Origin: an uncultured Bacteroidia bacterium
GTDB taxonomy: Bacteria; Bacteroidota; Bacteroidia; Bacteroidales; UBA932
Length of the DNA stretch: 64,000 nucleotides
Reading direction: 5' to 3'
Assembly (NCBI GenBank): GCA_902781705.1
Contig: CACZKE010000015.1
Span: 1-64,000 of the forward strand
Part shown: piece by piece, positions 53,694 through 64,000 of the stretch
How positions within the stretch are numbered: the first letter of the stretch is position 1
Layout: each line of letters starts with the position of its first letter
Notes under the pieces: generated by a model
Told to the model about the DNA's origin: nothing
The model's input: the letters and a program-made list of their open reading frames with translations, nothing else
Databases searched by the model: none
Made by a program: the position numbers and the translations under genes

Positions 53694-53724
53694 TTTGCAC
53701 GCTCAGGATAAATTGCTACCTTTG
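53694..53724 (+). promoter_or_regulatory. Perfect promoter for the his leader
   Basis: TTTG (53694-53697), 19 nt, TACCTTTG (53717-53724): exact -33/-7 consensus. The leader-peptide ATG follows 7 nt later. The ~195 nt upstream (53497-53693) are AT-rich and show no gene. Confidence 0.75.
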
Positions 53725-53731
53725 CAAAAGT

Positions 53732-53779
53732 ATGAGACAGAACGCGAACATCCTCCATCATCATCACCGTATCTCCTAG
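53732..53779 (+). CDS. Histidine leader peptide (attenuator)
   Basis: A 15-residue frame, MRQNANILHHHHRIS, with four consecutive His codons and a stop at 53777-53779. It lies just after a perfect promoter and before a terminator hairpin (53835-53858) and hisG. Stalling at His codons when charged tRNA-His is low should favour an antiterminator. The ATG has almost no 5' leader, so initiation is probably leaderless or uses a very short leader. Confidence 0.85.
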   Translation: MRQNANILHHHHRIS

Positions 53780-53834
53780 ATAGGGCGGTTTCGTTGTTGT
53801 CGCAATTCTGCAGTACATATCCGAATGAAGACCT

Positions 53835-53858
53835 GCCCACCCCGAGGCGGGCTTTTTT
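53835..53858 (+). terminator. Attenuator terminator before hisG
   Basis: GC-rich stem GCCC-A-CC / GG-C-GGGC around CCGA, followed by TTTTTTG, 37 nt before the hisG ATG and 55 nt after the leader-peptide stop. Confidence 0.75.
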
Positions 53859-53895
53859 GTTTTAAAATGAAACGAACGACAAATAGAATCAACCC

Positions 53896-54660
53896 ATGCT
53901 ACGGATCGCCATCCAATCCAAGGGCCGGCTCAACGAAGAGAGCCTGACCCTCCTCCAGGACATCGGCATCGAAGTCGATGCACCCAAGCGGAAACTCCTT
54001 TCCCGTTCCCAGACCTTCCCCATCGAGGCCCTCTATCTCCGGGACGACGACATTCCCGGAGTCGTCGCCGGCGGTACAGCCGCCCTCGGCATCGTGGGAC
54101 TCAATGAAGTGGAAGAAAAAGGGGCGCAAGTGGATGTCCTTTGCCGGCTGGGCTTCGGCGGCTGCCGCCTGAGTCTCGCCATTCCCAAGGGGGAGACTTA
54201 TGAAGGACCGGAGTGGTTCTCCGGCCGCCGCATCGCCACCTCCTATCCGAACATCCTCCGGAAGTTCCTCAAGAACACGAAGATCGACGCCATCATCGAG
54301 GAAATCACCGGATCGGTGGAAATCGCCCCGGCCGTGGGGATCGCCGATGCCATCTTCGACATCGTCTCTTCCGGCAGCACCCTCATCGCCAACGGCCTCA
54401 AGGAAGTGGAGACCGTCTTCGAGTCCGAAGCCGTCCTCATCGCCCGCCCGGGCCTTTCCGAAGACGAACAGGCCCTGGTCGATGACCTTCTGTTCCGGAT
54501 CGAGTCCGAGAACGTCAGCCGCGGCAAGAAATACCTCCTGATGAACCTGCCCAAGGCCTCCCTGGACGAGGCCATCCGGATCCTTCCCGCCATGCGGAGT
54601 CCGACCGTGATGCCGCTGGCCTCCGGGGACTGGTGTTCCCTGCACCACTTAACGCGCTGA
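53896..54660 (+). CDS. hisG: ATP phosphoribosyltransferase, long form, 3'-truncated
   Basis: HisG starts histidine synthesis by joining ATP and PRPP. The 254 residues contain a normal catalytic part (LRIAIQSKGRLNEES; VDVLCRLGFGGCRLSLAIP; RIATSYPNILRKFL; ITGSVEIAPAVGIADAIFDIVSSGSTL) and the start of the C-terminal ACT-like regulatory domain (RSPTVMPLASGDWCSLHHL), then TR and a stop. Long-form HisG is about 283 residues, so ~30 C-terminal residues are missing. The break coincides with a change to non-homologous DNA. Activity may remain, but feedback control by histidine is probably altered. hisD and the rest of the his operon are not in the window. Confidence 0.88.
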   Translation: MLRIAIQSKGRLNEESLTLLQDIGIEVDAPKRKLLSRSQTFPIEALYLRDDDIPGVVAGGTAALGIVGLNEVEEKGAQVDVLCRLGFGGCRLSLAIPKGETYEGPEWFSGRRIATSYPNILRKFLKNTKIDAIIEEITGSVEIAPAVGIADAIFDIVSSGSTLIANGLKEVETVFESEAVLIARPGLSEDEQALVDDLLFRIESENVSRGKKYLLMNLPKASLDEAIRILPAMRSPTVMPLASGDWCSLHHLTR

Positions 54661-54671
54661 AAATCAGCAAG

Positions 54672-54723
54672 TTACGCAACTTACGCACAACTTTACGCAT
54701 AAAAGACGCAAGGTTGTGCGTAA
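54672..54723. repeat. TTACGCA repeats at the element's left end
   Basis: Three direct copies of TTACGCA (54672-54678, 54681-54687, 54693-54699) and one inverted (54717-54723). Within it TTACGCACAAC and GTTGTGCGTAA (54681-54691 and 54713-54723) form a perfect 11-bp inverted repeat. This resembles recombinase arm sites, 12 nt after the hisG stop. Confidence 0.55.
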
Positions 54724-54754
54724 TTTCTTTAGATGAACACCCCTATACCCTAAT

Positions 54755-54787
54755 GGCTCGTAAGGGGGTGTCAACCCGGAACGAGCC
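54755..54787. repeat. GGCTCGT/ACGAGCC inverted repeat
   Basis: Perfect 7-bp arms (54755-54761 and 54781-54787) flanking GC-rich sequence near the left end of the element; possible protein site or RNA hairpin. Confidence 0.4.
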
Positions 54788-54840
54788 ACGAACTTTCCAC
54801 GCCATACGTCGCGTTTTTTAGAGTATACAACACAAAAAAT

Positions 54841-54864
54841 CCTGCCCCCCGAAAGGAAGGCAGG
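54841..54864 (-). terminator. Terminator of the leftward element operon
   Basis: CCTGCC/GGCAGG stem, then ATTTTTTG on the minus strand, 45 nt beyond the stop of the last gene. Confidence 0.7.
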
Positions 54865-54908
54865 AAACTTTTTTCAGCATCGGCCCGAGGGCCTGACAGT
54901 CACCCGGA

Positions 54909-55601
54909 CTACTCACCCGCGACCCACTTGGTCTCGGCAAGCATGGTGCCGGACTTCTCGCCGGTGCTGGAGTTAACGTAGTAGTAGCGGAAGAAGATCT
55001 TCGGCGCAGCTGCGTTCGGAGTTCCGTTCTTGGCCACGTAATCGGCACGGATGTCGATGGCGACCGCGGTGGGCTCTTCCACCATCTTGATGGCAACGGC
55101 CTTGCTGTGGGCGCGGCTTACGCCATTGGACTGACCTTCGGTGGCTTCGATGACCAGGAAGATGCCGCCGTTATCAGCGAGAGCCTGGTCCAGCTTGAAG
55201 GTAAAGGTATTGCCCTGGCACACGATGGTGGCGCTGGACGGGTTCTCCACGCCCAGGAGCGTGGGAGGGGTCACCTCGGGCTGGCCGCCGCAAGCGACGA
55301 TCCAGTAATTGAGGCGGGTGAAGAGGTTGGAGCCGGAGATCTTGGCACCGGTTCCCAGGACAGAACGGCCCTGCTGGCTGAGGGCAAGCTTGTTCCACGC
55401 GAGGATCTGCTCGTTGGTGAGCGTTTTCCACATCGTGGTCAGGCGCTTGAAAATGCCCTTGACCTTGGCCTGGTCGGAAGTGCGGACGCTGCCGCCGTAT
55501 CCGCGGTTGCGGATGTACTTCCGGTTCTTCATTTTAGCGGCAGTCACGCCCTTGGCGGATCCGCTCATCTCCTCGAAGGCGATGGAAGGAATGTACTTCA
55601 T
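54909..55601 (-). CDS. DUF6266-like element protein (paralogue 2)
   Basis: 230 residues. The N-terminal ~110 residues share the pattern of the 350-residue protein at 57.1-58.1 kb: IPSIAFEEMSGSAKGVTA, a basic R-rich stretch, and LTNEQILAWNKLA followed by NLFTRLNYW. This pattern resembles DUF6266-type proteins and 'W-x-x-L-T-x-x-Q' proteins of phages. The rest is a beta-rich domain with a C-terminal FRYYYVNSSTGEKSGTM. No enzyme motif is seen. A virion or surface-associated role is possible; last gene of the leftward operon. Confidence 0.6.
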   Translation of the reverse strand: MKYIPSIAFEEMSGSAKGVTAAKMKNRKYIRNRGYGGSVRTSDQAKVKGIFKRLTTMWKTLTNEQILAWNKLALSQQGRSVLGTGAKISGSNLFTRLNYWIVACGGQPEVTPPTLLGVENPSSATIVCQGNTFTFKLDQALADNGGIFLVIEATEGQSNGVSRAHSKAVAIKMVEEPTAVAIDIRADYVAKNGTPNAAAPKIFFRYYYVNSSTGEKSGTMLAETKWVAGE

Positions 55602-55603
55602 AG

Positions 55604-56077
55604 TCAGAAGAGTTTAAGGTTAATAATTTGAGTAATAAGGAAATAAAGTCCAATCAAAATCACGGCAAAGAAACAGAAGCCCCCTACCCTCAGCTTCGCC
55701 TGCTGCCAGCCGGTCAGTTTGCGCTTCACTTCAACCGTCACGGTCTGCACGCGGTCACGGAATACAATCGAATCCCGATACACAATCTCTTTGTCAACAA
55801 CCGCCGGCATCTTCACCGGCTTCGTCTCCAGCGAATGCTTAAGCACTCCGCCGGAAATCCGGGCATCCGAAAGAGCAAACTCGTTCTCCAGATGTGAAGT
55901 AGTATCCAGGACTGCCACCCGCTCCACAACACGCGGCAGCTCGACAAAGACGGTATCCTTCTCGATGACCGTCTCCGTCCGCACTTCCACCTTGGTACTG
56001 TCCGTCGTCGGAAGCGGGCGGACAGTACTGCAGGCAGAAGCGAGCGCGAGGAAAAGCAGTGGCAGATAGTATTTCAT
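55604..56077 (-). CDS. Spanin-like lipoprotein with C-terminal membrane helix
   Basis: 157 residues. Lipobox LALASAC at the N-terminus (Cys about 16), a charged middle with repeated VEKDTVFVELP- and VYRDSIVFRDRV-like segments, and a C-terminal transmembrane helix (VGGFCFFAVILIGLYFLI). An outer-membrane lipoprotein that also has an inner-membrane anchor is the layout of a unimolecular spanin, which joins the two membranes in phage lysis. It resembles small lipoproteins found beside holins in Bacteroides phages. Gap to the next gene: 2 nt. Confidence 0.65.
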   Translation of the reverse strand: MKYYLPLLFLALASACSTVRPLPTTDSTKVEVRTETVIEKDTVFVELPRVVERVAVLDTTSHLENEFALSDARISGGVLKHSLETKPVKMPAVVDKEIVYRDSIVFRDRVQTVTVEVKRKLTGWQQAKLRVGGFCFFAVILIGLYFLITQIINLKLF

Positions 56078-56082
56078 AGGTG

Positions 56083-56340
56083 TTATTCGTTCTTGTCAAG
56101 TTTCTGATGGAGTTCAGCCTCCATCTTGTTCAGTTTTGCATCAAAGCTGGCCTTTACCCCGAGAATTGCCCCGCACAGGACCAGCAGCTCGCTCACGATG
56201 CTGATGGCGGAATTCGTGATCTCGCCCGGAGGCGGAACGAAGAACAAGCAAACAGCGGCGATGGCAACACCAGCGGAGAAGCTGGCTATGGCTATGCCAC
56301 CCTGGAGCTTGGTCAGTTCTATGCGTTTCTTCTCGTTCAT
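56083..56340 (-). CDS. Holin-like small membrane protein
   Basis: 85 residues with two hydrophobic helices (GIAIASFSAGVAIAAVCLFF and AISIVSELLVLCGAILGV), a charged N-terminus and a charged Lys/Glu-rich C-terminus. Size, two helices and position beside a spanin-like gene fit a phage holin. Sequence alone does not prove the function. Gaps of 5-6 nt on each side show tight operon packing. Confidence 0.6.
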   Translation of the reverse strand: MNEKKRIELTKLQGGIAIASFSAGVAIAAVCLFFVPPPGEITNSAISIVSELLVLCGAILGVKASFDAKLNKMEAELHQKLDKNE

Positions 56341-56346
56341 AAGGCA

Positions 56347-57090
56347 TTAATTATCACGGACAAGGAAAGCAAAGATGAAAGGATCGTGACCGGTGTCATC
56401 AAAACCTGCGGTTCTGGTCTGGCAAGTGAGAACACCATTCTCGATGTGGGCTTCGCTCATGCCGTCCACAGAAGGATTGTACTGGTTGCCGCCGCCGCAG
56501 AAAGGAACATCAGCAGTAATGCCGGAGGGCAGGTTGTCCAGACTGCATTCCCATGCAGAATCACGGTAAGCATAAGTGCAACCGGAATACATCATGTGGA
56601 GGAACACCCAGTGTTCAAACTCCACGAAGAACGAGTCATAACCCCAGCGAAGGTAATTGTTCTCGGAAGTGGTTTGCAGACGTGTCTGCGTACCCTTGAT
56701 GGGATTGCCACCCCGGGCCAGCATAGTGTACAGGGCAAGAACGTAGATGGTAATCTCACCCTTCTCATCGAAGTTGGTGAGCTTCTCGATGCACAGCGTG
56801 TTCTTGTCCTTCACCCAGCTCTTGAGGACTGTACCGCCGCTGTTGTCCCAGGTATAGCCATAGCTGTCGCGCACATCACGGAAGCGCAGGAACACACCCG
56901 CGATAGCACTGCGGTCTATGCTGAGGTCCGGGACATAGATTTCCAGGACATCAGCAGCCTGGTACTCCGGAGACTCAGGATTGTAGGTAAACTTCGCATT
57001 GAGGACTACGAAATTCTCCTCCTGATGGGACTTAAAGGCTATCTGGCCAGCCCCGAAATTGTTACCTGTAGAGTTGAAATTCATAGCCAT
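56347..57090 (-). CDS. Element protein of unknown function
   Basis: 247 residues, soluble, beta-rich, no signal peptide. The start FNSTGNNFGAGQIAFKSHQE and aromatic-rich middle (YSGCTYAYRDSAWECS) are not recognised. It is placed in the leftward operon between the 350-residue protein and the holin-like gene, a place where tail or receptor-binding proteins often lie. Homology searches would be needed to assign it. Confidence 0.55.
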   Translation of the reverse strand: MAMNFNSTGNNFGAGQIAFKSHQEENFVVLNAKFTYNPESPEYQAADVLEIYVPDLSIDRSAIAGVFLRFRDVRDSYGYTWDNSGGTVLKSWVKDKNTLCIEKLTNFDEKGEITIYVLALYTMLARGGNPIKGTQTRLQTTSENNYLRWGYDSFFVEFEHWVFLHMMYSGCTYAYRDSAWECSLDNLPSGITADVPFCGGGNQYNPSVDGMSEAHIENGVLTCQTRTAGFDDTGHDPFIFAFLVRDN

Positions 57091-57091
57091 A

Positions 57092-58144
57092 TTAGTAGAT
57101 TATACCAGGCCCGAAGACCTCGGTAGGTTTGACATAGTAGCCGCCACGATGAGCGAAAGTGATGTATGCCGGATCGCCATAGCGGGCGCCATACAGCCAC
57201 ATTACATAAGACTGGGCCACCAGCTTGCCATCCTCGCCATTTCCACGGCCAAGCGCCCAGGAAGTGCCCTGCAGTTCAGCGGGCAGGTCATCCACAAGGT
57301 AGGCCTCGGAGCTGGCCACGTTGCTGTGACCCTCACACATCACGTCGAACTGGATAACCGGCGCTCCGGAAGAAAAGTCCACGTCAATGGAGGAAACGTG
57401 CTGCTCATGATCCGGCAGCAGACGATCCATTGTGACCCTCTTACGCGGCGTGTAAGAGGATTCGCCGGTCACGATGACAGAATCTTTATACACCTGCCCG
57501 GCAAAGCCGGTCGAAGTGTCCAGCCAGTAGGCTTCAATAAACACCTTCTGGCCCGGCGTAGGCTCCACGCCAATCGTCTTCAGATACAACCGGGTGACAT
57601 CCGCCTCTCCCCAGTCATCCTCGACTTCAGAAGAGATAATCACCGTCTTATTCCAGCCGTTGGAAATACCGGAACTCTGGGAGCCCGACATCTTCACAAC
57701 CATCTTATAAGGCGCAGATTCATGCTTGATGCCACCGAACACAACCAGCTGCGGCGTCACCGCCACGGAGCCATACACCACATTCGGCACAGCCACCTGC
57801 GCCGCCGGAGCATCGGCCATCACCGCCTCCCCGGCCATCACGCGGTTCGCGTTCAGGCGCACATACAGATTCATGCCGGAGAGCTCGGCCTTCTGGCCGA
57901 AAACAGAAGCCCCACTGGCGTGCTCCGCCAGCCGGTCCCATTCGGACCGCTGCTCGTTCGACAAAGCAACCCAGCTCTTGGAAATCTTCTTCAGCGAAGC
58001 CCGACGGGCCAGCTGGGCTCCGGTCGCAACCCCGGTCGGGTAACACTTCAGCGAAAGGATGCTACGGCCGCCCACCTGGCGAGCCGTAACACCCTTGGCC
58101 GAACCGGAGAAACCCCCGAAAGCAATGGAAGGAAGCGCTATCAT
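57092..58144 (-). CDS. DUF6266-like element protein (paralogue 1)
   Basis: 350 residues. N-terminal module like that of the gene at 54.9 kb: LPSIAFGGFSGSAKGVTARQ, then LSNEQRSEWDRLAEH and MNLYVRLNANR (about 1-100). The rest (100-350) is beta-rich, with KVFIEAYWLDTSTGFAG and a Gly-rich end (YGDPAYITFAHRGGYYV). It is the first gene of the leftward operon, behind the promoter at 58177-58184. The repeated module in two proteins of one operon suggests a shared partner or packaging signal. Confidence 0.6.
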   Translation of the reverse strand: MIALPSIAFGGFSGSAKGVTARQVGGRSILSLKCYPTGVATGAQLARRASLKKISKSWVALSNEQRSEWDRLAEHASGASVFGQKAELSGMNLYVRLNANRVMAGEAVMADAPAAQVAVPNVVYGSVAVTPQLVVFGGIKHESAPYKMVVKMSGSQSSGISNGWNKTVIISSEVEDDWGEADVTRLYLKTIGVEPTPGQKVFIEAYWLDTSTGFAGQVYKDSVIVTGESSYTPRKRVTMDRLLPDHEQHVSSIDVDFSSGAPVIQFDVMCEGHSNVASSEAYLVDDLPAELQGTSWALGRGNGEDGKLVAQSYVMWLYGARYGDPAYITFAHRGGYYVKPTEVFGPGIIY

Positions 58145-58176
58145 AGTTTAAGTAAATTTTCCGTAACTCTTTGATT

Positions 58177-58184
58177 CAAATTTA
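58177..58184 (-). promoter_or_regulatory. Bacteroidota -7 element for the leftward element operon
   Basis: TAAATTTG on the minus strand, 32 nt upstream of the 58144 start. Confidence 0.55.
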
Positions 58185-58438
58185 CTTATAATCCGCAAAT
58201 GAATCAATCCCCTTAACTACGCCCTTGACAACTATTTGACACTTCCACCCACCCATATTACCAAACCATACTAAACTATACCCAAATCACACACCCACTT
58301 TACAAAATCCCCGAAATATGTCAAATCGAGCTCCATTTTAAAGCGCTTTGAATATACTTGGCGGTATTGAAGTTTACTCTAATTAAATACCTGTAAACCG
58401 CACTATATCAACATATTGCGCACAACGAAAAAGCAATA

Positions 58439-58446
58439 TACCTTTG
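58439..58446 (+). promoter_or_regulatory. Bacteroidota -7 element for the replication operon
   Basis: TACCTTTG, with ATTG about 20 nt upstream (58415-58418), 66 nt before the DUF3853 ATG at 58513. Confidence 0.6.
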
Positions 58447-58470
58447 TTCCAGCGCTAGCAGAAATACCTG

Positions 58471-58484
58471 CACAACCGGTTGTG
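58471..58484. promoter_or_regulatory. Palindromic operator candidate CACAACCGGTTGTG
   Basis: Perfect 14-bp palindrome about 20 nt downstream of the predicted start site of the replication operon; a repressor bound here would block transcription. A half-site CACAAC also lies at about 58421. Confidence 0.5.
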
Positions 58485-58512
58485 TTTTGTTAAACTTCAA
58501 ATCAAGACGATT

Positions 58513-58815
58513 ATGATCTTTGATGAAACCACCCCCATCGCCGCCCTCACCGTCGGCGACCTCAAAGAACTCCTCCGCGAGCTCAAGCTGGACCGCTCCA
58601 GCGCATCCGTCAAGCCCAACCAGGGCAACGGAAAACGTTACGTCTATGGCCTCAAAGGAATCCAGTCCCTGTTCAACTGCTCCCACCTCACGGCGCAGCG
58701 CTACAAGGACACCTTCCTGGCCCCCGCCGTCATGCAGCAGGGCCGCAAGATCGTCATCGACGTAGAACAGGCCGTTGAACTCTTCAAGACCCACAAAGAT
58801 GGAAACAACGGATAG
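58513..58815 (+). CDS. DUF3853 family helix-turn-helix protein
   Basis: 100 residues. The family core is GLKGIQSLFNCSHLTAQRYK with AVMQQGRKIVIDVEQAVELF, an HTH with a beta wing common in mobile elements of Bacteroidota. It is probably a DNA-binding accessory or regulator for replication or excision. ATG 58513 is chosen because the earlier in-frame start has no support. It overlaps the next gene by 17 nt. Confidence 0.8.
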   Translation: MIFDETTPIAALTVGDLKELLRELKLDRSSASVKPNQGNGKRYVYGLKGIQSLFNCSHLTAQRYKDTFLAPAVMQQGRKIVIDVEQAVELFKTHKDGNNG

Positions 58816-59878
58816 CCTGAACCCCATTGAAGCCATCACCGCTGCAGTGGAAGGAAACGCACACACCAGCACCGTCGGCATGCTTGCCATCAAGAAAGTC
58901 AACGACTCACTCTCTGATGCCTCCAAGATGCCCAACCCGGTGCCCCTCTTCCTCGAACTCTGGTACCAGGGCGAAGTCTCCTGCCTCTTCTCGGACTCCA
59001 ACCTCGGGAAATCCATCTACGCCGTGCAGATTGCCGAAGAAATCGCCAAGCGGCACAGCATCCTCTACCTCGACTGCGAGCTCTCCGAAAAACAGTTCCA
59101 GCTCCGCTACACCGACGACGCCACCGGCACCCTGCACCCCTTCCCCGAGCGCATGTACCGGGCCGAGATCGACAACATGCACCTGGACCTCAAGGACTAC
59201 GAAGACCGCATCCTCCATAACATCGAAGCCGCAGCACTTGAGCTGCACTGCAACATCATCGTCATCGACAACCTCACCTACCTCTGCAACAGTTCAGACA
59301 AAGGCGTCGATGCCGGCCTCTTCATGATGAAACTCATGCAACTCAAGAAAAAGCACGGCTGGTCCATCCTCATTATCGCCCACACGCCCAAGCGCAGCCT
59401 TTCCAGCCCCATCACCCAGAACGACCTCGCCGGCTCCAAGAAGCTCTACAACTTCTTTGACAGCGTCTTCGCCATCGGCAAATCCGCAAAGGACGAGCGC
59501 CTCCGCTACGTCAAGCAACTGAAAGTCCGCGCCGGAGCCTTCCGCTACGACTCCGACAACGTCATCGTCTACGAGATTGAGAAGACAGATGGCTTCACCC
59601 ACTTCGAATTCAAGGAGTACTCCACCGAGCGCGAGCACCTCCGCGAGCAGAAGGAGACTGAGACCCTGAACCGCGTAGAGAACATCATCCAGCTCTTCCA
59701 GCAAGGCAAATCCTACCGGGAAATCGCCCAGGAAGTCGGCCTCAGCAAGTCCATGGTCGCCAAGATCATCAAGCAGGCCGAAGCGTCCACCGCGCAGACA
59801 GGGGTAAACGCAGTGGACACGGTGGACAAGGTGGACACCGGTGGACAAGACCTGTTTGACCAGAAAGAGGAGGAATAG
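58799..59878 (+). CDS. RecA-like AAA ATPase of the element's replication module (RepA/DnaB-like)
   Basis: 359 residues. An atypical Walker A (LFSDSNLGKSIYA), DCELSEKQFQLRY, Walker B (NIIVIDNLTYL) and IIAHTPKRS place it with RepA/KaiC-like hexameric ATPases of phages and plasmids, likely a helicase. A C-terminal HTH (KSYREIAQEVGLSKSMVAKII) suggests DNA binding. The end of the gene contains four GTGGACA repeats (59813-59847), which explain the VDTVDKVDT tail. Confidence 0.8.
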   Translation: METTDSLNPIEAITAAVEGNAHTSTVGMLAIKKVNDSLSDASKMPNPVPLFLELWYQGEVSCLFSDSNLGKSIYAVQIAEEIAKRHSILYLDCELSEKQFQLRYTDDATGTLHPFPERMYRAEIDNMHLDLKDYEDRILHNIEAAALELHCNIIVIDNLTYLCNSSDKGVDAGLFMMKLMQLKKKHGWSILIIAHTPKRSLSSPITQNDLAGSKKLYNFFDSVFAIGKSAKDERLRYVKQLKVRAGAFRYDSDNVIVYEIEKTDGFTHFEFKEYSTEREHLREQKETETLNRVENIIQLFQQGKSYREIAQEVGLSKSMVAKIIKQAEASTAQTGVNAVDTVDKVDTGGQDLFDQKEEE

Positions 59879-60186
59879 TATGGACTATGAATACCGCCTT
59901 CAGAAATACGCCGGCACAGCCTCCCGCCACACCTGCCCCAACTGTGGCGGCAAGCGCTGCTTCACGCTCTACGTAGACGCCAACAACGAGCCCCTAAACG
60001 ACGCTGTAGGCCGATGCGACCACGAATCCGGCTGCGGCTACCACTACACCCCCAGCCAGTACTTCAAGGATCACCCGGACGCCAAACCAAACGCCGAAGA
60101 CTGGCGCAAGGCCCCCGACTGGCTCGATAAATCCGTCCACCGTTGTCCACCCTGTCCACCCGTCCACCCAGTGGACAAAGTGGACA
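59813..60186. repeat. GTGGAC/GTCCAC repeat clusters in two adjacent genes
   Basis: First cluster: GTGGACA at 59813, 59822, 59831 and 59841, with one GTCCAC at 59785. Second: GTCCAC at 60135, 60145, 60154 and 60162, then GTGGAC at 60171 and 60180. Spacing within clusters is 8-10 nt. The second cluster is read in more than one frame (VH, CP), so DNA, not protein, seems to be conserved. They look like iteron sites. Confidence 0.65.
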
Positions 60187-60995
60187 CACTCCCGGAAGAC
60201 ATCGTGGCCAAGACCCTGAGACCCGACCGCCCGTCGGACTTCACCCAGTTCCTCGCCACCATCTTCGACCCCATCATCCTGGAAGGCCTCATCGACGAGT
60301 ACCGCATCGGAGTCACCCGCGACCGTGCCGTCATCTTCTACCAGATTGACATCCAGGGCCGCGTACGCACCGGCAAGGTGATGAAATACGACCCCGAGAC
60401 CGGCCACCGCATCAAAGACGAGAACACCAAAGGCCGCATCACCTGGGTACACTCCCTGATGAAATACTCCGGCCAGCTTCCCCAGGAATGGCAGCTCAGC
60501 CAGTGCCTCTTCGGCGAACACCTCCTGCCCCTCTTCCCCGAGAAGCCCGTGGCCCTCGTCGAATCTGAGAAGACGGCCGTCATTTGCGCCGGACTCATCC
60601 CCAAGTTCCTCTGGCTCGCCACCGGCGGCAAGTCCCAGCTCAATGCCCGGCTGAACGTCCTAAAGGGCCGTTCCATCACCGCCTTCCCGGACATTGACGG
60701 CTACGAGACCTGGTGCCAGAAAGCCGCGGAATTCCCGGAGCTGGGCATCAAGGTGGCCGACCTCCTCCAGAAGCACGGCACCGAGCAGGACCGGATCGAC
60801 CACATCGACATAGCCGACTGGCTCATCCGCTGGCACCGGACGCCCAATCCCAGGGCCGATGCAACCTTCGCCGCCGTGGCGCAGTACTTCTCTCCAGAGG
60901 TCCACGAGGAGATCCGGGCGCTCATCCACGACCTGGATCTTGAGTTCGTGGGTGTCGATAAGATTGAGGAAGGGCCGGAAGAAAAAACACCTTAG
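59880..60995 (+). CDS. Zinc-finger/toprim-like primase-related protein (DUF6371-like)
   Basis: 371 residues. N-terminal zinc ribbon CPNCGGKRCF with a second CDHESGCGYHYTP. The C-terminal part resembles DUF6371/toprim-like proteins with VALVESEKTAVICAG, LATGGKSQLN and ITAFPDIDGYETW (acidic D-x-D). Such proteins are found beside RepA-like ATPases in Bacteroidota elements and are primase candidates. It is followed by a terminator at 61044-61070. A Cys/Pro/His-rich stretch (about 85-102) comes from the GTCCAC repeats. Confidence 0.75.
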   Translation: MDYEYRLQKYAGTASRHTCPNCGGKRCFTLYVDANNEPLNDAVGRCDHESGCGYHYTPSQYFKDHPDAKPNAEDWRKAPDWLDKSVHRCPPCPPVHPVDKVDTLPEDIVAKTLRPDRPSDFTQFLATIFDPIILEGLIDEYRIGVTRDRAVIFYQIDIQGRVRTGKVMKYDPETGHRIKDENTKGRITWVHSLMKYSGQLPQEWQLSQCLFGEHLLPLFPEKPVALVESEKTAVICAGLIPKFLWLATGGKSQLNARLNVLKGRSITAFPDIDGYETWCQKAAEFPELGIKVADLLQKHGTEQDRIDHIDIADWLIRWHRTPNPRADATFAAVAQYFSPEVHEEIRALIHDLDLEFVGVDKIEEGPEEKTP

Positions 60996-61043
60996 ACTCC
61001 AATTGGACTCCAAGTCGAACGATTTGCGAATTACTACCTTGGT

Positions 61044-61070
61044 ACCAGATTTCCACTACGGAGATCTGGT
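61044..61070 (+). terminator. Terminator of the replication operon
   Basis: Stem of 11 positions (ACCAGATTTCC / GGAGATCTGGT, one mismatch) with loop ACTAC, then TTTCTTTTTC; about 48 nt after the stop. Confidence 0.7.
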
Positions 61071-61127
61071 TTCTTTTTCTGTGGCCACAAAATAAGAAGC
61101 CATTGTAAAACTTAACAAAGCAAAGCA

Positions 61128-61421
61128 ATGGATTCAACAGAAAAACGAATCAGCTATGACAACCTGCCAGAAGCGGTTGCCACATTACTATCGGAAGTCC
61201 GGGAACTACGTTCCCTGATGGAAACGCAAACGTCCTTCGGTGGCTTTTCGCCCTGGATGGATATAGCCGAGTTATGCGAATATCTGCCCGGGCATCCAGC
61301 AAAATGCACAGTGTACGAATGGATTCACAACAACACCATTCCTTTCCACAGATGCGGCAAAGTCTATGGTTTCTTCCGCCCCGAGGTTGATAAATGGATT
61401 ATGAAAGGAGGTCAACAATGA
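61128..61421 (+). CDS. Excisionase-like helix-turn-helix protein
   Basis: 97 residues: an N-terminal coiled segment (VATLLSEVRELRSLMETQ) followed by a MerR/excisionase-type winged HTH (WMDIAELCEYLPGHPAKCTVYEWIHNNTIPF... RPEVDKWI). Such proteins assist recombination or regulate excision. The stop overlaps the next ATG (ATGA). Confidence 0.75.
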   Translation: MDSTEKRISYDNLPEAVATLLSEVRELRSLMETQTSFGGFSPWMDIAELCEYLPGHPAKCTVYEWIHNNTIPFHRCGKVYGFFRPEVDKWIMKGGQQ

Positions 61422-61576
61422 AGGAACCCAGAAGCATCAAAGATATTCTCCTTGATATTGCCGAAAAGCCTGAAGATGATTTCGGCAAGGTATTGAGGCA
61501 GTGTCCAACCATACGGAAAGGCCTTGAAGAGAGGCGTAGGAAAGGAGAAAGTAGAAAAAAGAAAGCTACAGATTAG
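61418..61576 (+). CDS. Small hypothetical protein, coupled to the HTH gene
   Basis: 52 residues, highly charged (many Lys/Arg/Glu), no recognisable domain. ATGA overlap with the HTH gene and an ordinary start support expression. It is followed by a terminator hairpin. Confidence 0.55.
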   Translation: MKEPRSIKDILLDIAEKPEDDFGKVLRQCPTIRKGLEERRRKGESRKKKATD

Positions 61577-61587
61577 CACGTTTAACG

Positions 61588-61614
61588 GCCTCGTTATCCG
61601 ACAGATAACGGGGC
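61588..61614 (+). terminator. Terminator after the small HTH operon
   Basis: Stem GCCTCGTTATC / GATAACGGGGC (one wobble pair) with a 5-nt loop, followed by TATTTATT. Confidence 0.6.
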
Positions 61615-61664
61615 TATTTATTACTGAAACAAACTAAATATTATTAAAATCAACGGAAAAAAGT

Positions 61665-61672
61665 TAAATTTG
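61665..61672 (+). promoter_or_regulatory. Bacteroidota -7 element for the methyltransferase gene
   Basis: TAAATTTG, which places the transcript start near 61679 and leaves a ~130-nt leader. Confidence 0.55.
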
Positions 61673-61678
61673 TAGTCA

Positions 61679-61807
61679 ATATACAAGCACAACATACAAT
61701 GTATTCCAATTGCGAACTCTCCCTTTGTAGGGAGGATTCGATACGTGAGAGGGCATAATGTGCCCTATACGTGCATGTTGTGGGCTGTATGAATAACACA
61801 GTGTACG
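61679..61807 (+). ncRNA. Structured 5' leader of the methyltransferase gene
   Basis: A closing stem CACAACAT (61688-61695) / ATGTTGTG (61775-61782) surrounds two perfect hairpins: CTCCCT-TTGT-AGGGAG (61719-61734) and AGGGCA-TAATG-TGCCCT (61750-61766). The second hairpin is flanked by direct repeats ATACGTG (61741-61747 and 61767-61773). A three-way-junction fold is thus possible just upstream of the start codon. Confidence 0.5.
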
Positions 61808-63163
61808 ATGGCTAAGACCAAGAAAACATACAATTTCATTGACTTATTTGCCGGACTTGGCGGCATTCGCCTGGGATTTCAACAGGCACTTGCGGAACGT
61901 GGCCTACAAGGCCGCTGCGTGTTCACTTCTGAAATCAAAGCAGCGGCAATAACAGCTCTCAACCATAACTTCCCCGGCGAGGACATCAAACCTACTGACA
62001 TCACTGCCGTCAAGAGCGAAGACATTCCGAGTTTCAAAGTTCTTCTTGGAGGTTTCCCCTGTCAGGCATTTAGCTCAGCCGGTGCCAGGAAAGGTTTTGC
62101 TGACACCCGGGGCACTCTCTTCTTCGAAGTAGAAAGAATCTTGACTGACAAGCTCCGCGGAGTGGACGGTTTTCTCCTTGAAAATGTGGAAGGCCTCGTC
62201 CTGCACGACAGGGCCTCAACACAGGACAAAGAGGGCCGCACCATCAAGATAATTATGAAAGTCTTGAGGGACAAACTGAAATTCAATGCGGAGTATGTAG
62301 TACTCGACGCCGCTGATTTTGGTGTTCCCCAAAGACGCAAACGTGTTTACATTGTTGGTTGCAAGAAGCGTTTCGGTAAAATAGATCTCAACTTTACTCC
62401 GCAGCCCCGTGTGATGGTTGGAGAAATCCTCGAGCACGGTAAACCCACCCTTGATAGCGAGTTCTCAAGAAAGCTCCTTTCCGTCTACGCTGCCCAGGAC
62501 ATGGTTGGCAAATCACTAAACGACAAGCGCGGTGGTGCCAGAAACTTCCACAGTTGGGATATTGACGCTCGTGGGGCTGCTACCCCGGAGGAGAGGGATT
62601 TACTTAATGCAATCCTCCGCGAGCGTCGCAAAAAAGCATGGGCTGACATTATTGGAATTGTTTGGAAAGATGGTATGCCCTTGACTACGGAACAGATTCG
62701 GACTTTCCATGATGTCCCCAATCTCCAAGAAATGCTGGATGATCTCTGCGCAAAGAAATATCTTCGCCTGGAATACCCAAAGAACTTGGTTGTCCACCAT
62801 GAGGAGGACGGAACAACATGGACAGAACGTAAAGCTGTTGAGTCCTTGCCAATGGGATACAATATCATTACGGGCAAGCTGTCCTTTGAGTTCAGCGCTT
62901 TCTTGGACACCAACCGGATTTCCCATACCCTCGTCGCAACCGACATGACTTCCATTGGCGTAGTAGATGGCAATGGCATTAGACATCTCACCTTGAGGGA
63001 GGGATTACGATTGTTCGGTTATCCTGAGTCTTATTCCCTGGCACCATTTGAGGATGGCCCTAAGGCCACAGAATTGGGTTATGACTTAATCGGAAACTCT
63101 GTTTGTGTCCCTGTGATTAAGGCCGTGGCTGGTCGTTTATTGGATGTAATCGATGTAAAGTAA
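61808..63163 (+). CDS. DNA (cytosine-5)-methyltransferase
   Basis: 451 residues with the ordered C5-methyltransferase motifs: I (IDLFAGLGGIRLGF), IV with the catalytic Cys (GGFPCQAFSSAG), VI (LLENVEGL), VIII (VPQRRKRVYIVG) and X (LIGNSVCVPV). It methylates a cytosine in a short DNA motif that cannot be read here. Base use is less GC-rich than in the flanking element genes, suggesting separate acquisition. The gene downstream is probably the matching nuclease. Confidence 0.93.
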   Translation: MAKTKKTYNFIDLFAGLGGIRLGFQQALAERGLQGRCVFTSEIKAAAITALNHNFPGEDIKPTDITAVKSEDIPSFKVLLGGFPCQAFSSAGARKGFADTRGTLFFEVERILTDKLRGVDGFLLENVEGLVLHDRASTQDKEGRTIKIIMKVLRDKLKFNAEYVVLDAADFGVPQRRKRVYIVGCKKRFGKIDLNFTPQPRVMVGEILEHGKPTLDSEFSRKLLSVYAAQDMVGKSLNDKRGGARNFHSWDIDARGAATPEERDLLNAILRERRKKAWADIIGIVWKDGMPLTTEQIRTFHDVPNLQEMLDDLCAKKYLRLEYPKNLVVHHEEDGTTWTERKAVESLPMGYNIITGKLSFEFSAFLDTNRISHTLVATDMTSIGVVDGNGIRHLTLREGLRLFGYPESYSLAPFEDGPKATELGYDLIGNSVCVPVIKAVAGRLLDVIDVK

Positions 63164-63169
63164 AAGCAT

Positions 63170-64000
63170 ATGAGTACCGGTAAGCTTAGTAAGGACGATG
63201 CGCTGAAAGCCATCACAATGTTCCTCATCGACGAAAAAACAGAGAACAAGTATAAGAAGAAAGTTTCTTCCGAGCTTGCCTCCTACCAGAATTCAATGCT
63301 TGGTATCTCCACCAAAGAAGGTCTGGAGAAATACATCCGTTCGGATGAGAATGCCATCGAGCGCCTGACTACAATCCTGGGCCTTTCTGGTGAGCGCTTT
63401 AAAAGGGTGATTTCACTTATTCGTTTTAACAAGGGGTATGTATTTACCACAGAATGGTCAGACACTGCGCTCCGCAAGCTTTTGATTGAGAATCAGCCTT
63501 TGATGGATGAGTTTTGTGAATTGCTCCTGAATGGAAGAAGCCTTCCTAAGTATCAGGCAATTATTCCGGCTTTCATCCTTAATTATTTCCACATTGATTC
63601 TGAAGTTATTGCCCGTATTTGTAGCGATGATGTCCTCGGACGCCAAATCAAATCTACTTGTTCGACTAAGTACAACAAGGAAATCACTCAAGCATACGCT
63701 AACCGTGTTAATGACAAGATACGCTCCATAACGGACAAATATCACCTCCATTATGAGAAACGGCAGATTCCCGGTGGCAATAAAGAGCTGTTTGATTTGA
63801 TTCATGATACCGAAAAATACATCGTCGTCAATTACCAGTACAGTGTGACAACAGGAAAAGGCCAGTCAGACCATGCCGACAAAATCACCGAAATCCGCAG
63901 AATGGTCCAAGGCAACGACAATATAAAAATGCTTTCGCTCCTTGATGGTGCCGGATGGCTGGTGAGAGGCGCAGATTGGGATCGTGTCTATGGTTGCAGT
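63170..64000 (+). CDS. Probable type II restriction endonuclease, cut by the window end
   Basis: The reading frame starts at ATG 63170, 6 nt after the methyltransferase stop, and stays open for 277 codons to the window edge. Its visible C-terminal part (about 225-277) has IVVNYQYSVTTGKGQSDHA, then LSLLDGAGWLVRGADW, a pattern like the PD-(D/E)xK-type core of DpnII-like enzymes. The first ~200 residues are helical and not recognised. The gene order methyltransferase-nuclease and lower GC support a restriction-modification pair. Confidence 0.6.
   Translation, partial: MSTGKLSKDDALKAITMFLIDEKTENKYKKKVSSELASYQNSMLGISTKEGLEKYIRSDENAIERLTTILGLSGERFKRVISLIRFNKGYVFTTEWSDTALRKLLIENQPLMDEFCELLLNGRSLPKYQAIIPAFILNYFHIDSEVIARICSDDVLGRQIKSTCSTKYNKEITQAYANRVNDKIRSITDKYHLHYEKRQIPGGNKELFDLIHDTEKYIVVNYQYSVTTGKGQSDHADKITEIRRMVQGNDNIKMLSLLDGAGWLVRGADWDRVYGCS

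Follow-up and report, generated by a model that had tools for sequence, protein, structure and literature searches.

The hisG gene of this uncultured Bacteroidia bacterium is interrupted by what is most probably an integrative element, here termed E1, that entered the gene at a secondary site while its primary site, the tRNA-Phe gene, was occupied; we assign this reading, which is drawn from sequence comparison, a probability of about 0.9. Most of the states involved can be read directly: the empty hisG, the tRNA-Phe gene filled beforehand, the element at its usual site in relatives and the detour. The window, i.e. the whole 64,000-nucleotide stretch analysed, covers positions 1-64000 of the 72572-base contig C15; the genome (G000) spans 3.07 Mb in 43 contigs, and the other end of the element lies on contig C37.

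Truncation of hisG

The features surrounding hisG in the window are the following:

53694..53724 (+): predicted his promoter of the Bacteroidetes type (TTTG-N19-TACCTTTG), an exact consensus match
53732..53779 (+): his leader peptide MRQNANILHHHHRIS, ending in a stop, with four His
53830..53859 (+): terminator-like hairpin of the leader (GACCTGCCC...GGCGGGC and a T run), recognized in the sequence and paired in the fold
53896-54660 (+): truncated hisG, 254 aa
54631..54648 (+): attL, TGGTGTTCCCTGCAC/CAC, with the chromosomal core at 54636-54645 and the element from about 54646, as placed by comparison with the empty site of genome G217 and attR on C37

The truncated gene consists of 250 native codons followed by HLTR and a stop (protein end DWCSLHHLTR). 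Compared with G217, which among the matches listed from 400 genomes of the genus is the closest relative (HisG 96% identical, 283 aa, uninterrupted), these four residues replace the last 33, in agreement with the preliminary description, which noted a frame break where HisG normally continues for about 30 residues. The Pfam profile HisG matches residues 49-203 of the truncated protein (profile 1-157 of 158), and HisG_C is matched over profile positions 2-44 of 73 only. By these matches, the catalytic region is intact and the histidine-binding domain has lost about 40% (33 of 283 residues and 29 of the 73 HisG_C positions are cut), less than the loss of most of the regulatory domain that was first proposed.

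In a survey of 101 same-genus genomes, this one included, 48 gave a HisG match, and the frame is open over at least 284 aa in 45 of these. The three short open frames are those of the present genome (257), G004 (253) and G077 (137), where the G004 match stops 5 bases short of a contig end and the G077 match is partial. Among the 48 matches, no relative has a 254-residue HisG unless a contig end adjoins, and relatives with an uninterrupted hisG do exist, the empty site lying on single contigs in G069, G064 and G217. A short form of HisG was ruled out, since relatives have long HisG and the missing tail is present elsewhere in the genome; judged by these comparisons, the cause of the truncation is an integrative element.

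Junctions and att core

The only HisD match obtained for the genome by profile search lies on C37, and the missing 33 hisG codons (HSVIDAADLWTKVRQLKAIGAEGILVMDVDKIIL) are found directly upstream of this hisD, overlapping its start:

C37 8093-9370 (-): hisD
C37 9367-9483 (-): hisG tail with the att core, overlapping hisD, the integrase being on its other side
C37 from 9484: right end of E1, adjoining the hisG tail
C37 9626-10954 (+): tyrosine integrase of 442 aa, pointing into the element and adjoining attR, with Phage_integrase, SAM-like and arm-binding domains

The interruption of hisG by an integrative element and the form of its right end (the hisG 3' part, then hisD, with a short duplicated core) had both been anticipated, and both are confirmed by the tail and hisD found beside an integrase. 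A hisD without a hisG tail, the converse case, was not seen, the sole hisD found being preceded by the tail. With a slash at the point of joining, attL reads TGGTGTTCCCTGCAC/CACTTAACGCGC and attR TGGACTTCCCAGCAC/TCGGTCATC, the empty site of G217 being TGGTGCTCCCTGCACTCGGTCATC; the core common to both junctions is TTCCC[T/A]GCAC. Against the core carried by attR (TTCCCAGCAC), the hisG core (TTCCCTGCAC) agrees at 9/10 bases and that of G217 hisG (CTCCCTGCAC) at 8/10. A C-to-T difference at the core start is silent (Cys), and either predates the insertion or stems from repair of the recombination joint. Alignment of attL with attR gave nothing informative. In G004, one contig breaks off no more than about 10 bases from this hisG core (G004:C13:1-20, L012), possibly owing to a mixed population or to chance.

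Extent and content of E1

The element is split over C15 and C37, as is its counterpart in G023. Its left part comprises:

54646..64000 (+): E1 left part, which reaches at least about 69892 on C15 (contig end 72572), collinear with the G023 element
54681..54723 (+): left-end hairpin with repeated TTACGCA motifs (arm-type-like), terminator-like, -20.5 kcal/mol, z -6.1
54909..58144 (-): five ORFs (230, 157, 85, 247 and 350 aa; ORF list) of no assigned family
58480..58815 (+): DUF3853 protein (Pfam)
58775..59878 (+): AAA_25 ATPase, primase/helicase-like (Pfam, PHROGs)
59841..60995 (+): protein with DUF6371 and a zinc ribbon (Pfam; no PHROGs hit), possibly primase-like
61128..61421 (+): HTH_17 protein, excisionase-like (Pfam, PHROGs)
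61808..63163 (+): C5 cytosine DNA methyltransferase (family search)
63170..64000 (+): DpnII-like endonuclease (weak, below the Pfam cut-off), the gene ending past the window

None of the five left ORFs gave a PHROGs hit and four gave no Pfam hit, the 85-aa ORF lying outside the Pfam scan. Beyond the DpnII-like gene, C15 encodes a 434-aa unknown protein, a helicase (SNF2, ZorD/DpdE-like), a NO VEIN-domain protein, a Vsr nickase and an endolysin-like amidase. The run of genes from the methyltransferase to Vsr (61808-64000 in the window and on to about 69270 on C15) is a candidate defence cassette. On C37, the right part encodes the integrase along with two unknown ORFs and a protein whose HTH match is sub-threshold; it also includes a long structured non-coding stretch. 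No relaxase or type IV secretion gene was named by Pfam, PHROGs or PADLOC among the proteins scanned from the assembled parts, in scans that did not set each ORF against each library and with the middle of E1 outside the assembly. Likewise, no capsid, portal or terminase gene was named in assembled E1, the only families of note being the endolysin-like amidase, the excisionase-like protein and the integrase. With its middle unassembled and neither transfer nor virion genes named, E1 is called an integrative element and no more.

The non-coding stretch (C37 12460-13660, L002) is 1.2 kb long, strongly structured and common to six elements (L002, L151, L150, L036, L047 and L040). RNAalifold gives -467 kcal/mol for it against -270 to -293 kcal/mol in eight column shuffles, and 53 pairs changed on both sides against 11-28, in a control that keeps neither dinucleotides nor relatedness. 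No Rfam family matched at the gathering score, and the hits below it are at chance level only.

The tRNA-Phe gene as the usual target

The integrase core (TTCCCAGCACCAC) is identical to the 3' terminus of tRNA-Phe. In G023, the tRNA-Phe gene is followed by 15.3 kb collinear with the window from 54636, extending to about 69892 and 86.7% identical, and the matching right end lies on a separate contig (C26) with an integrase 89% identical. In G288, an E1-type left end stands directly after tRNA-Phe (94.8% over 481 bp) with the same hairpin sequence, and another contig carries 183 bases of the same right end, beyond which the sequence gave no integrase match. Across 300 genomes of the genus, 20 related integrase genes were retained in 19 genomes (E 1e-150 or better) and their upstream junctions compared by eye: one joins hisG (this genome), five carry the 3' end of tRNA-Phe, ten resemble tRNA-Ala 3' ends and one (G156) joins the core to sequence upstream of asnA, the remaining three being unassigned. 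The tRNA-Phe-type junctions read TGGACTTCCC[A/G]GCACCAC followed by a hairpin, and the integrase protein at one of them (G293) is identical to that of E1. By this comparison, tRNA-Phe is the usual site of E1 and hisG a secondary one.

A complementary survey matched tRNA-Phe in 27 of 30 genomes, and the downstream sequence was read in 26: an E1 left end follows in two (G288 and G023) and an E2-type left end in two (the present genome and G162). Counting against the simple picture, three genomes (G293, G270 and G167) carry the tRNA-Phe core at their right ends, yet other DNA follows their tRNA-Phe; there the element may sit in tandem behind another element, or elsewhere. Behind several tRNA-Phe 3' ends in the genus lie a hairpin and short direct repeats resembling the ends of other element families, and the gene looks like a crowded hotspot. 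The related element upstream of asnA, also seen in L037 (4850-4870, the same junction as in G156, L057), has an att core followed by non-tRNA sequence and an integrase 92% identical over residues 127-441 (83% in the best segment), and is likely a second secondary-site insertion.

These surveys bear on the reading that hisG is the normal target, or a regulated, reversible on-off switch for histidine synthesis. Such a role would suit a precise insertion with both hisG halves in place, from which excision could in principle restore the gene, but it is very improbable, as the hisG junction occurs in this genome only (1/20) and no hisG, hisG tail or hisD match was found in 17 related element loci. 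Against a switch, in addition, stand the hisG core, one base off the usual one, and the poor excision from secondary sites described for ICEBs1 (PMC3715440). An assembly chimera, with an intact hisG in the cell and element DNA misjoined to it, is slightly less credible still: the assembly is fragmented and each junction is on a contig of its own, but these are independent junctions with one core, the element ends are of the kind seen at tRNA-Phe in G023 and G288, and the genome has one HisG match and one HisD match.

Probable prior occupancy of tRNA-Phe

In G069 and G064, a single contig carries, in an unbroken row, hisG, hisD, C, B, H, A, F, IE, an aldolase-like gene and tRNA-Phe (hisD was named by Pfam and the other downstream genes from their translations). 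In the present genome, tRNA-Phe (C37 1252-1325) has the same orientation as hisG and stands past the his operon, 8 kb downstream from the break; next comes an E1-like left end and then a Bro-N gene. It looks as if the tRNA-Phe gene already carried the left end of another element, here termed E2. The same E2 DNA is found at tRNA-Phe in G217 together with an intact hisG, and C37 and G217 align at 91.5% along a stretch of 9385 bases that starts in the hisG tail, passes tRNA-Phe and ends in E2. Most simply, E2 would have come first, with E1 entering hisG once the G217 lineage had split off. A search for the right end of E2 did not locate it: three places in the genome carry the exact core pattern, none being that end, and a candidate contig, which matches DNA downstream of the G069 tRNA-Phe, stops about 110 bases before the match.

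The tRNA-Phe on C37 is the only one found (one DNA match; one Phe among the 30 of 41 tRNA loci that were typed). The hisG and tRNA-Phe cores are direct repeats 8 kb apart. Tandem elements at tRNA-Phe followed by recombination between hisG and a copy of the core would produce the same junctions with C37 as an extrachromosomal circle bearing the his operon and tRNA-Phe, but this takes more steps than one insertion, and cells losing a circle with the only tRNA-Phe found should die, so that it is hardly to be expected.

Proposed course of events

The sequence of events preferred here is a single insertion. The tyrosine integrase of E1 would ordinarily target the 3' end of tRNA-Phe; in this lineage, that gene would already have held E2 (known by its left end alone), and E1 would have integrated instead into hisG, where the core matches at 9/10 bases. 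The insertion would thereby swap the last 33 HisG residues for HLTR, place the element's hairpin behind the stop and cut the his promoter and attenuator off from hisD onward. Documented at the sequence level are the two junctions, the uninterrupted hisG site, the element at its usual site in two relatives, and E2 DNA beside tRNA-Phe both here and in G217; the occupancy of tRNA-Phe probably caused the detour. A two-step recombination that moved the 8-kb his segment across E1 would lead to the same end state; a single insertion is one step. By our own estimate, the agreement of the hisG site with the core is equalled at many places in the genome. In addition, occupancy need not force a detour, as occupied sites can take tandem insertions, by analogy with those reported for SGI1 (PMC2297512). 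The event is of a known kind, namely ordinary site-specific recombination at an unusual place. In the titles and abstract openings of the literature found, no element inserted in hisG is described, and no literature was found on Bacteroidales integrative elements at tRNA-Phe.

Consequences for histidine synthesis

The promoter assignment relies on a Bacteroidetes consensus that we take to be TTTG-N19-21-TAnnTTTG. A leader ORF with 3-5 consecutive His lies upstream of hisG in 8 of the 10 genus genomes scanned, this one included; the scan required HHH and returned none for G027 and G098. The whole leader fold is unexceptional (z -0.8; 40/200 shuffles fold as well). As the preliminary description held, the his attenuator is cut off from the downstream his genes: promoter and leader stay with hisG, and hisD onward lies on C37. 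The element-borne hairpin sits behind the truncated hisG stop. At attR, an outward promoter was not detected, with no TAnnTTTG in the 270 bases from the integrase start to hisD and, for the two-part consensus with at most 2 mismatches, 0 hits against 0.30 expected. Expression of hisD and the genes after it would be expected to fall.

No internal stops occur in hisD or the genes that follow, and on the G000 branch dN/dS is 0.18 for hisG and 0.08-0.22 for the eight downstream genes, hence the insertion is either recent on the dN/dS scale or tolerated. The G000 branch exceeds the G069 branch in 8/9 genes, the whole stretch being slightly raised. Relaxed selection on hisG was considered and rejected, since its value falls inside the range of the other eight genes, with no hisG-specific decay.

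Domain III of HisG binds histidine, and residues there are reported to act in feedback inhibition (PMC3896937). The truncated enzyme may have lost histidine feedback. A bolder view is that HisG is active and feedback-deregulated and hisD onward freed from the attenuator, with histidine synthesis rewired, not killed, and that the paired hisG and tRNA-Phe cores could let the integrase move the whole his segment; this we regard as unlikely, if less so than the alternatives above. More generally, the case illustrates how a biosynthetic operon can be hit when elements crowd at a tRNA gene next to it. A HisG profile search of 400 genus genomes gave a match in 175 and none in 225, and among the 150 genomes with completeness of 90% or more and contamination of 5% or less, 72 gave no match. 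Loss of histidine synthesis may be frequent in the genus and, given the 225 genomes with no HisG match, element insertions in hisG may be one route to histidine auxotrophy.

Comparison with known systems

Among Bacteroidetes elements, those of the CTnDOT/NBU type have a tyrosine integrase and short cores that tolerate mismatches. E1 is likened to them by these features, and differs in that it targets tRNA-Phe and in that no relaxase or transfer gene was named in its scans. The truncated HisG resembles the group of PDB 5ub9 (a 226 aa HisG core), presumably an engineered, active catalytic core, in keeping the catalytic region; in that group the whole C-terminal domain is absent, whereas about 60% of it remains here, perhaps misfolded. 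ICEBs1 of Bacillus subtilis has an integrase and a host phylum that differ from those of E1, and no transfer genes were seen in assembled E1. Like E1, ICEBs1 is a tRNA-gene-targeting element found in secondary sites, whose use is documented above all where the primary site is absent (PMC3715440). The recipient described in that study lacks attB (PMC3715440), whereas in the host of E1 the primary site is present and naturally occupied. Salmonella genomic island 1 (SGI1), an integrative element too, likewise has a secondary site besides its primary one, and use of both sites and tandem arrays are reported for it (PMC2297512). The primary site of SGI1 is the 3' end of thdF and its secondary site is intergenic (PMC2297512), whereas E1 cuts a biosynthetic gene.
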